Source: Fibrobacter sp.
GTDB taxonomy: Bacteria; Fibrobacterota; Fibrobacteria; Fibrobacterales; Fibrobacteraceae
Direction: 5' to 3'
DNA length: 64,000 nucleotides
Assembly: GCA_024398815.1 (NCBI GenBank)
Contig: JAKSIL010000005.1
Coordinates: 1-64,000, forward strand
Shown here: piece by piece, positions 28,199-32,125 of the stretch
How the letters are laid out: each line of letters opens with the position of its first letter
Position numbering within the stretch: the first letter of the stretch is position 1
Made by a program: the position numbers and the translations under genes
Notes under the pieces: generated by a model
Database searches by the model: none
Seen by the model: the letters and a program-made list of their open reading frames with translations, nothing else
Told to the model about the DNA's origin: nothing

Positions 28199-28693
28199 AT
28201 GGTACAATTGAGTCAAACTTCATGGCAAGAGTTTTCGCTTCCAAATCTTATGGAAACGCTTCAGTATGCTCCACTGAACTTGACCATCGGCAAAAATCCG
28301 ATTTTGCACTACACGCTCCCAAAAGAATTGGAATCGGGCGCTTTGGTGAAATACCACATTCAATTCGGACTCAAGACAATCAACTGGACCGGCATCATCA
28401 GTTCGGTTAGCGACAACCAGGTGACGGTCCGTCTTGGCGAAGGTCCGTTCCGTGGATTCACGGCTAGCCATCGTTTTGTGTCCGAAGGAAACATCACCGG
28501 CTGCTACGACGAATTTTCATTCCAGGGATTCACGACCATTCCCGAAAGCACTTTCGCCGACATTATGGCAAACGCAAGCGTTGTCTACGGGATTTTCGCC
28601 CGCAAGTCCACTCGCGAAATAATGCTCGCCTACGAAACACAGAAAAAGACACAGGCATTCGAGGCCCTGGACCAGAGCGCCACGGCCGGTTAG
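28199..28693 (+). CDS. SRPBCC-fold protein (START/polyketide-cyclase-like)
   Basis: 164 residues, no signal peptide. The pattern fits the COG4276-like SRPBCC group: SLPNLMETLQYAPLNL, LVKYHIQFGLKTINWTGII, EGPFRGFTASHRFVSEG and CYDEFSFQGF. The fold binds hydrophobic ligands in a cavity; no enzymatic residues are obvious. It is 24 bp upstream of the UbiD-fusion gene and likely cotranscribed with it. It is divergent from the flippase. Confidence 0.6.
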   Translation: MVQLSQTSWQEFSLPNLMETLQYAPLNLTIGKNPILHYTLPKELESGALVKYHIQFGLKTINWTGIISSVSDNQVTVRLGEGPFRGFTASHRFVSEGNITGCYDEFSFQGFTTIPESTFADIMANASVVYGIFARKSTREIMLAYETQKKTQAFEALDQSATAG

Positions 28694-28717: not shown

Positions 28718-31700
28718 ATGTACAGCAATCTTAGACAAGCCCTGCTGGATTTGGAAAAAGCGGGGATGCTAAGGCGTATCCACGAAGAAGTGGATCCGTA
28801 TTTGGAAATGTCCGAAATGGCGAGGCAAGCCTTCGACAATGGCGGTCCCGCTCTTCTTTTCGAGAAAATCAAGGGAAGTAAGTTCATGGCGGCGGCCAAC
28901 ATTTTTGGCACCCGTGAAAGAATGGATTTCTTGTTTCGCGACACAATCAAAGGCACAAAGACTGCTGTACAGTTCAAGGCGGACCCCGTTGCTTTTTTCA
29001 AGCATGCAAGTCCGGCGAAGCTTTTGCAGGCCGCGTCCACCGGCATTCGGGCCCTTCCTTGCAAATCAGGTTCCATCAAGGATTTCGAGGAATGTTCGCT
29101 CGAAGACCTTCCGCAAATCGTAAGCTGGCCCGATGACGGTGGAGCGTTTTTAACGCTGCCACAAGTGGCCACGCGGCCAAGCGATTCGGCAAGCGTCCTC
29201 CAGACGAATCTCGGGATGTACCGCGTACAGATTTCCGGCAACGACTACGCCTCGAATGAATGCGGCCTCCACTATCAAATCAAGCGCGACATCGCAAGGC
29301 ATCATCAAAAGGCGATTGAGGATGGCCGTCCTCTCAAGGTCAGCGTTTTCTTGGGAGGACCTCCAGCACATACGATTGCTGCCGTAATGCCCATGCCGGA
29401 AAACCTTTCGGAGCTCACGTTCGCGGGCATGCTCGCCGGGAAAAGATTCCGTTACTTTATCCATGACGGCTATCTGATTTCCAGTGATGCCGAATTCTGC
29501 ATACTTGGGGAACTCGCTCCGGATTTGAAACCCGAAGGTCCCTTTGGCGACCATGTCGGCTACTATTCCGGAAAGCACCCCTTCCCCTACATGAAGGTCC
29601 ACAAGGTCCTCTGCAAAAAAAATGCGATTTTCCCGTTTACGGCAGTCGGAAGACCGCCGAAAGAAGATACCATCTTCGGTGAATTCATCCACAAGATTAC
29701 AGAGCCCATGGTCCCCACATCGATTCCAGGAGTCCATGCCGTACACGCCGTAGATGCAGCAGGAGTCCACCCGCTGTGCCTAGCCCTTGCAAGCGAAAGG
29801 TTCATTCCCTACGCCGATCCGGAAAAACGCGAGCCCATGGAACTTCTAAAAACGGCCAATGCGCTTTTGGGTTTCAATCAAGTGAGCCTTAGCAAATACT
29901 TGATGGTCGCCGCCAAAGAAGACAATCCGCAACTTGACGTAAACGATGTTCCGTCTTTTTTCAAACATGTGCTGGAACGAGTCAACTTCGCCCGGGATTT
30001 GCACTTTCAAACAGCCACCACCATCGATACGCTGGACTACACAGGTACAAGTCTAAATCATGGATCCAAGCTCGTCATTGCTGCCGCAGGCCCAAAGCGC
30101 AGGGAACTCCGCAACAGCGAAGCCGACTTGGAATCGCTCTTGCTGCCACAGGATTTCGGACAAGTGTCGATTCCCATGGCAGGCGCCTTGATGATTGAAG
30201 GCCCCGCTTACCCAAGCAATCTGGGCCCCTTTATCAAAGCCCTGGAACATTGGGAGTTCCGAGAGAACTATCCATGGATAAGCATCGTCGACCACGAAGC
30301 CTACGCAGGACTCAATGACTTCTTATGGTTTACATTCACGCGCTCCGACCCGGCTCAGGACATTTACGGAATCGATGAAAAAATCACACAAAAGCACTGG
30401 TCCATAGAACCTCCGCTAATCGTGGACGCGCGTCAAAAGCCCCGCCATCAGAAGCCCCTTTCCGTAAGCAAATCCGTCATCGCAAAGGCTAGCGAAATTC
30501 TTAAAAAATCAACAGCCGTTTTCTGCCTTTGTTTTATTTTATCCGCTTTAATGGCCCCGTCCGCCTCAGCCTACCGCTGTGGCACTTCGCACATTTTCGA
30601 AAACAGCGCCATAAAGAAACAAAGCCGGCCCATGGCCAAATCCTACTATGATGAAGTCTGCACTCCGGATGTCTTTTACGACTCCGTTTATACATTAAAA
30701 ACAAAGCACTTCGAAATATTCTACACGTTGAACGGTCCTCACGCCACCACGCAAAATTACATCGACAGTGTCGCTTCAAATTTTGAAAAAGCCTGGGATT
30801 TCCACGTAAACAAATCAGGCATGAGAAAACCGCTGGGTTCACCCAAAACATACCATTACCAGAAAGAGGTGGAATCGGATTTATACCCCATCGAAGTTGT
30901 CGATATAAACCAGATTCGCGACTTGCACTCCATATTGTCCGAAGACTGGTGCAATTCCTGCTTTGGTCTGACCGTCCCTATAAACGAGCTAAAAGCCAAT
31001 CAAACCCAGATTTTCCTGGATAACGATTTCCAATACACTCCGGAATATCCAGACAAATTCGACTCCGTCAAAGTTGAAAGTACATACTGCAAATACCCTG
31101 TAGCCAACGTGGAAATATGGAATACCACCCACAACTATTCCTACAAAAAGAACTGGGCAAACGGGATTCGCGTCACCGCATTCCACGAGCTCTACCACGC
31201 ATCACAGCTCCGCTATCTGGACATGTACAAACATCGTACTTTCTGGTTCGAAGCATCTGCTTCCGGCATTGAAGAAGTTACCGCGCCCGACATAGACGAC
31301 TACATAGCTTCCGTATCGCAATCGCTCAAGAGCACAGGCATTCCCGTAAGCAATTTCAGTTCTCCATACGGAGCTGGAATTCTGTTCCTGTATCTGTACA
31401 ACCATTACGACAAGCGTTTTGACAAGGACATCTGGGAACGTTTTTCGAAAAAGCCCGAAGAAGACTTCCAATACCATCTGACCGCATCACTAAAAGCCAA
31501 GGACAAATCCGCCGACAGCATATTCCATGACTTTGCAACAAAGCTTTCGTTTTCGGGAACACGCAGTTCATTTATAGATTCTGCAAAATGGATTGCAAGC
31601 GACCAAGCCAAATGGGGCAACATTCACTACGATACCGTATCGTCCATCCCGAGTCTATTGAATTTCTCGTACAAATTCAGCAACAGCAACGAAATTTCAA

Positions 31701-32125
31701 CCCAGGATTTTTACGGAAGAATTAGCGCAGCTCTCTATAAAAACGGACATGCCGACATAATGCCCGCTGCAAACACCGGTTCCTTGGATTCCATCCGCAC
31801 ACAAATGGTCCACTACGATTCCGTGGCCTGGATTCTCTCCAGATTCAACGAAGAAACAATATTCCCTGAATATGTCAAGGACTCCACATTAAGAGCTTAT
31901 CCCATGCCTTGGCGAGGCGGAAACCTCTGCTTTACTCCTCTTCCCAGCAACAAGGATTTCATTGAAGTTCGCAACCGCCGTGGAAATCTCGTGTTCAGGG
32001 AATCTTACACGCAAACAACGCACTGCATAGACGAATCCCAGGTCAAATCAAAGATGAAACCGGGACTCTATCGGTTCCGTGCAGGCGCTAGCGGCAAGAC
32101 AAAAGACTTTTTAGTGATTTATTAA
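28718..32125 (+). CDS. UbiD-family decarboxylase fused to a signal peptide and a HExxH peptidase-like domain
   Basis: 1135 codons with no stop. Residues 1-593 are a whole UbiD/MqnL-type prenylated-FMN decarboxylase (GPALLFEKIKGSKFMAAAN, GDHVGYYSGKHPFPYMKVHK, VDARQKPRHQKPLSVSK at the usual end), the menaquinone or aromatic-acid branch. From 594 comes a classic signal peptide (ILKKSTAVFCLCFILSALMA, ending PSASA). Residues 619-1135 look secreted, with HELYH at 823-827 and a glutamate at 845 (WFEASASGIEE), the HExxH-x17-E gluzincin layout. A cytoplasmic enzyme joined to an export signal makes no simple sense, so either one protein is anchored across the membrane, or a stop codon was lost, or the second part starts at the ATT described below. 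The last 15 bp overlap the convergent GH57 gene. Confidence 0.8.
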   Translation: MYSNLRQALLDLEKAGMLRRIHEEVDPYLEMSEMARQAFDNGGPALLFEKIKGSKFMAAANIFGTRERMDFLFRDTIKGTKTAVQFKADPVAFFKHASPAKLLQAASTGIRALPCKSGSIKDFEECSLEDLPQIVSWPDDGGAFLTLPQVATRPSDSASVLQTNLGMYRVQISGNDYASNECGLHYQIKRDIARHHQKAIEDGRPLKVSVFLGGPPAHTIAAVMPMPENLSELTFAGMLAGKRFRYFIHDGYLISSDAEFCILGELAPDLKPEGPFGDHVGYYSGKHPFPYMKVHKVLCKKNAIFPFTAVGRPPKEDTIFGEFIHKITEPMVPTSIPGVHAVHAVDAAGVHPLCLALASERFIPYADPEKREPMELLKTANALLGFNQVSLSKYLMVAAKEDNPQLDVNDVPSFFKHVLERVNFARDLHFQTATTIDTLDYTGTSLNHGSKLVIAAAGPKRRELRNSEADLESLLLPQDFGQVSIPMAGALMIEGPAYPSNLGPFIKALEHWEFRENYPWISIVDHEAYAGLNDFLWFTFTRSDPAQDIYGIDEKITQKHWSIEPPLIVDARQKPRHQKPLSVSKSVIAKASEILKKSTAVFCLCFILSALMAPSASAYRCGTSHIFENSAIKKQSRPMAKSYYDEVCTPDVFYDSVYTLKTKHFEIFYTLNGPHATTQNYIDSVASNFEKAWDFHVNKSGMRKPLGSPKTYHYQKEVESDLYPIEVVDINQIRDLHSILSEDWCNSCFGLTVPINELKANQTQIFLDNDFQYTPEYPDKFDSVKVESTYCKYPVANVEIWNTTHNYSYKKNWANGIRVTAFHELYHASQLRYLDMYKHRTFWFEASASGIEEVTAPDIDDYIASVSQSLKSTGIPVSNFSSPYGAGILFLYLYNHYDKRFDKDIWERFSKKPEEDFQYHLTASLKAKDKSADSIFHDFATKLSFSGTRSSFIDSAKWIASDQAKWGNIHYDTVSSIPSLLNFSYKFSNSNEISTQDFYGRISAALYKNGHADIMPAANTGSLDSIRTQMVHYDSVAWILSRFNEETIFPEYVKDSTLRAYPMPWRGGNLCFTPLPSNKDFIEVRNRRGNLVFRESYTQTTHCIDESQVKSKMKPGLYRFRAGASGKTKDFLVIY
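30484..30571 (+). other. Internal signal-peptide segment with a possible AUU start
   Basis: AAAGG at 30484-30488 is a ribosome-binding-like site 8 nt before ATT at 30497, which begins a 25-codon segment with the n-, h- and c-regions of a signal peptide ending PSASA. AUU is a rare but real initiator in bacteria (infC). Initiation here would give a free secreted 542-residue peptidase. No ATG, GTG or TTG is available before the signal in frame. Confidence 0.4.

Follow-up and report, generated by a model that had tools for sequence, protein, structure and literature searches.

Signal peptides normally work at the N-terminus of a protein. In the Fibrobacter DNA analysed here (the window, 64,000 nucleotides in all), a segment with the features of a signal peptide lies in the middle of a coding region. 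A single open frame of 1135 codons, running from ATG to TAA with zero internal stops, encodes in order a UbiD decarboxylase, the signal peptide, a gluzincin-type zinc peptidase and a C-terminal domain with a weak resemblance to those of type IX secretion (T9SS). Is this frame a real gene, and what would become of a cytoplasmic enzyme made ahead of an export signal? An earlier note on this DNA described the frame, which is indeed open over its whole length, and offered a true fusion or a lost stop codon as alternatives. Each is partly right. The fusion is real and a stop has been lost, but through a larger, deletion-type change. The features are collected in Table 1.

Table 1. Features of the fused gene (positions in the window).
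Feature	Position	Strand	Basis
Fused gene, 1135 aa	28718..32125	+	Open frame; fused state shared by G081, G022 and G014
UbiD-type prFMN decarboxylase half, residues 1-577	28718..30448	+	Pfam and homology to E. coli UbiD
Last UbiD helix, residues 578-593, positively charged, now signal peptide n-region	30449..30496	+	Predicted helix 585-610 spans the joint; separate UbiD tail and the ATG seen in split relatives absent
Internal signal peptide, residues 594-618, predicted signal peptidase I site A-S-A/Y after 618	30497..30571	+	Core hydrophobicity, A-x-A
Gluzincin-type zinc metallopeptidase half, MXAN_6640/M30-like	30572..31891	+	Model, structural match, NF045524
HELYH zinc-binding/catalytic motif, residues 823-827	31184..31198	+	H, E and H invariant in 64 orthologues
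E845, candidate third zinc ligand	31250..31252	+	Invariant in 64 orthologues
C-terminal beta domain resembling a type IX secretion sorting domain	31892..32122	+	Weak TIGR04183, CHU_C and PorZ matches

Relatives give the clearest view of how the frame arose. Among 80 Fibrobacter genomes, both genes were found on one contig and adjacent in 78. They are separate in 74 of these and fused without an intervening stop in four: the window genome (G000), RUG11357 (G081), SRR12081296_bin.7 (G022) and RUG14062 (G014). The last three loci were recovered again under independent record names. In split pairs the peptidase start (ATG or GTG) is at most about 20 nt from the UbiD stop, and an ATGA overlap is frequent; 67 of the 74 pairs are in different frames, and seven share a frame with a stop between the genes. 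Three loci from further afield (L240, L241 and L244; Fibrobacter or Fibrobacteraceae) are split pairs too. Since the two-gene state is ancestral as well as the commonest (74/78), the stop must have been lost in the fused genes. The earlier note had treated a stop between the two parts in close relatives as evidence against a fusion. Such stops are widespread, and they do not count against it because they represent the ancestral state. Long frames also occur in GC-rich relatives, e.g., one of 1061 aa in G026, and these are chance upstream extensions rather than fusions. No relatives were found in the viral contigs searched.

The UbiD gene and the gene for the exported peptidase are closely packed across Fibrobacter (the window and 77 orthologous loci) despite the different compartments of their products, which have no known functional link. 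Termite-gut Fibrimonadaceae have no UbiD near the peptidase at their peptidase loci, and UbiD homologues in the order- and class-level relatives examined have other neighbours. These loci outside the genus therefore give no sign of an ancient link in function. A 164-aa gene of unassigned family with only weak Pfam matches (28199-28693) ends 24 nt before the start of UbiD and may belong to the same operon.

The junction itself differs from that of split genes in more than the stop. A start codon is found near the UbiD stop in 74/74 split genes, and 0/4 fused genes have ATG, GTG or TTG at the beginning of the signal peptide. Conserved anchors in the two halves lie 117-141 nt apart in fused genes versus 134-194 nt (median 157.5) in 66 split genes. 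Lost together are the variable tail of UbiD, its stop codon, the peptidase start and the peptidase n-region. Point loss of the stop as the sole change is ruled out, since the start codon and junction length have gone as well. The fused genes do contain possible rare starts, ATT at codon 594 in the window and CTG, or TTG within the signal core, in the others. The peptidase could be translated separately from such an in-frame start, leaving the fusion as a minor readthrough product. ATT594 would yield a textbook signal peptide and has AAGG about 8 nt upstream, and the genes of split relatives are close enough for translational coupling. However, the fused genes share no common start position, and a peptidase initiated on its own should have kept a normal start such as every split gene has by the UbiD stop. 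Separate translation of the peptidase is therefore rather improbable.

Trees and substitution rates bear on whether the fused genes are functional and how often they arose. G081, G022 and G014 form one clade with 100% support. Within it UbiD has a dN/dS of about 0.09-0.12 and the peptidase one of about 0.2-0.3; these values cover the three genomes, pairs with the window genome being dS-saturated. Such low ratios indicate that purifying selection acts on each half within the single frame. A clade of all four fusions is weakly rejected in a tree of UbiD plus peptidase (p-AU 0.028) and is not rejected in a GyrB tree (p-AU 0.09). In the UbiD-only tree, the split G011 adjoins the three-genome fused clade. 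A search for RpoB in the window genome found none. The trees are compatible with two fusions as well as with a single fusion plus one re-splitting.

Could the frame still be an assembly or sequencing error, or a recent decay in which a chance loss of the stop left a non-functional product? The window genome is an estimated 85.75% complete in 88 contigs, the fused relatives of known record title are all MAGs, and most relatives are split. Even so, this explanation is very hard to credit. Four separate assemblies are fused with differing junction sequences, the start codon and junction length were lost besides the stop, and the three-genome clade is well supported with both halves under purifying selection. 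Fusion in three other genomes, missing starts, a shortened junction, retained signal features and purifying selection argue together against a sequencing error. The comparison of loci indicates a genuine fusion that is conserved but rare, derived and heritable, and that occurs in at least three Fibrobacter species besides that of the window.

The N-terminal half is a UbiD-type decarboxylase. Pfam detects UbiD_N at residues 10-74 (75.4 bits), UbiD at 114-313 (193.2 bits) and UbiD_C at 319-456 (99.4 bits), with cut-offs of about 24 and E-values down to 4e-57. It matches E. coli UbiD in sequence (E 4e-44) and in predicted fold (E 1e-27). N164, R169, H185, E273 and D278 are invariant across 37 sequences, and position 259 is E or D. 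By homology N164, H185 and E259 would provide the metal-ligand set, and R169, E273 and D278 the Glu-Arg-Glu/Asp triad. The N, R, E and E/D positions come from alignment to E. coli UbiD, and H185, assigned from its motif, presumably belongs to the active site. Fibrobacter UbiD (28718-30496 in the window, and its orthologues) is about 600 aa long, with about 100-140 residues past UbiD_C that fall outside the E. coli UbiD alignment. This extension is present in class-level relatives too.

A UbiD-type MqnL and a UbiX-type MqnM have been proposed for the futalosine pathway of menaquinone synthesis (PMC4746308). The UbiD of the fused gene is the only homologue found in the window genome (85.75% complete), which also encodes UbiX, the prenyltransferase that would supply prFMN (TIGR00421, 191.5 bits, above cut-off, at G000:C3:35427), and two MqnA/MqnD homologues, a sign of the futalosine route. 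This genomic context makes it probable that the UbiD half is the menaquinone decarboxylase MqnL. The MqnL equivalog TIGR03701 is its best-scoring model, at 329.7 bits, yet below the cut-off of 495.9. If the role is correct, the fused protein has to function as a cytoplasmic decarboxylase.

The exported half was modelled alone (residues 619-1135) with 64 orthologues, giving a mean pLDDT of 92. The best structural match is the M30 peptidase lugdulysin (Z 19.4), followed by M1 aminopeptidases (Z 12-14). HELYH and the glutamate 18 residues on, both pointed out in the earlier note, are present. In the model this HExxH motif and downstream Glu sit in a gluzincin fold, as expected of a gluzincin, and peptidase activity is predicted. 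The NCBIfam model MXAN_6640_HExxH (NF045524) matches residues 806-949 at 72.6 bits (E 4e-20), below its cut-off of 140, which was reached by no match in 41 related genomes. By sequence the peptidase is related to the MXAN_6640 family, short of membership. A second MXAN_6640-like HExxH protein is encoded outside the window in an 815-aa frame (G000:C14:4756-5220), with counterparts in most of the Fibrobacter genomes searched.

The last 77 residues weakly resemble a divergent T9SS sorting domain, below curated cut-offs. TIGR04183 gives 14.1 bits on the fused protein versus a cut-off of 23, and matches 9/32 orthologues (best E 0.002); CHU_C matches at E 0.06, and the fold matches PorZ (5m11) with probability 0.99. 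TIGR04183 has 57 matches elsewhere in the window genome. The domain is kept in the fused copies, at 71-72% identity versus about 51% for the whole peptidase. Its pattern, AYPxPWRxGxLCFxPLP...PGVYRFRAGxSGKTKDFIIIY, includes two invariant Cys residues that form a pair, and the domain shows stronger conservation than the peptidase overall. It may be a T9SS sorting domain of an unusual type, poorly scored by TIGR04183.

Between the two halves lies the segment that the earlier note recognised as a signal peptide (ILKKSTAVFCLCFILSALMAPSASA), a call that here rests on composition and homology. Its core hydrophobicity of 2.8 falls inside the range of 1.74-3.63 for the signal peptides of split orthologues, and the cores of the fused genes are no less hydrophobic than those of split ones. 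A hydrophobic core and an A-x-A site are kept in 4/4 fused proteins. In the full-length AlphaFold model a single helix (585-610) links the last part of UbiD to the signal core; confidence is low past residue 600 and poor at 601-618. The earlier note took residues 1-593 as a complete UbiD. The enzyme is there, but its boundary is loose. The conserved part stops at about 577-593, and the last helix continues into the signal core.

These features suggest a route by which the protein could be made and sorted. A small deletion would have removed the UbiD stop together with the peptidase start codon and n-region, to give one reading frame. The UbiD half would fold in the cytoplasm, its last helix supplying positive charge ahead of the signal core. 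The internal signal peptide would then enter the Sec translocon with its N-terminus inside, and the peptidase would pass outward. Signal peptidase I would most likely cut at ASA/Y, freeing the peptidase to the periplasm or cell surface, possibly via T9SS. UbiD would keep a short membrane tail at its C-terminus, and a position at the membrane is plausible given its prenylated membrane substrate. From the genes we infer expression, membrane insertion, cleavage, tail anchoring and surface export. On balance we favour the view, without great assurance, that coupled UbiD and peptidase genes were merged by a small deletion into one chain that is inserted by Sec, probably cleaved by signal peptidase I, and leaves UbiD with a membrane tail. 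The chances seem evenly balanced that the product is a polyprotein of an essential-type decarboxylase and an unrelated protease, cut by signal peptidase, in which the old signal peptide serves as a new C-terminal anchor for UbiD, an arrangement that possibly evolved twice in the genus.

The earlier note gave an internal membrane anchor as one of its two readings and overlooked the A-x-A site, which would permit a signal peptidase cut. An uncut type II signal anchor would yield a stable bifunctional protein that spans the cytoplasmic membrane, its UbiD half held on the inside and its peptidase half on the outside. The predicted helix continues through the joint, tethering of UbiD to the membrane is plausible given its prenylated substrate, and signal peptidase may be less efficient on an internal signal core than on one at the N-terminus. 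Against these points, A-x-A is kept in all four fused proteins even though the junction/signal segment is only 20-49% identical among them. The T9SS-like domain would also be useless on a chain anchored in the inner membrane; because a chain held there could not cross the outer membrane, retention of this domain favours release of the peptidase. Cleavage is rated above a permanent anchor, which we consider unlikely.

The few species with the fusion and their split sister species form a natural experiment on whether a large folded cytoplasmic enzyme is tolerated ahead of a cleavable signal peptide, and on how one deletion could give a protein a membrane tail. For annotation, the case is a warning that an absent stop between a cytoplasmic and an exported protein may be no error.

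Each part of the fused protein can be compared with known systems. Like E. coli UbiD and MqnL-type UbiD, the N-terminal half has full UbiD_N, UbiD and UbiD_C domains and the active-site residues, and is the single copy found, alongside UbiX and MqnA/MqnD homologues; unlike them, the protein continues with the extension after UbiD_C, the signal peptide and the peptidase. The peptidase shares HExxH, the downstream Glu and the gluzincin fold with the MXAN_6640 family and M30 lugdulysin, but it scores below the family cut-off and has an extra C-terminal beta domain, and it is usually encoded separately, with a signal peptide of its own. By analogy the fused gene may be regarded as a variant of an idea already known, that of a bacterial polyprotein with its signal peptide inside the chain. 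The closest known precedent is FbcH, from which Bradyrhizobium japonicum makes its cytochromes b and c1; it is reportedly a single chain that signal peptidase cleaves at an internal signal sequence to yield two proteins. A search of a literature library for FbcH, or for bacterial internal signal peptides of this kind, found nothing. Like FbcH, the fused protein has an in-frame internal signal peptide with a predicted signal peptidase I site, and it would give two mature products. In FbcH, however, an integral membrane protein of the same complex forms the N-terminal part, whereas here a soluble cytoplasmic enzyme precedes an unrelated exported peptidase. ToxR, CadC and RodZ are type II signal-anchor proteins, with a cytoplasmic N-terminal domain, one hydrophobic segment and a periplasmic C-terminal domain. 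The same three-part topology is predicted for the fused protein, but its hydrophobic segment is derived from a cleavable signal peptide and still carries the A-x-A site.
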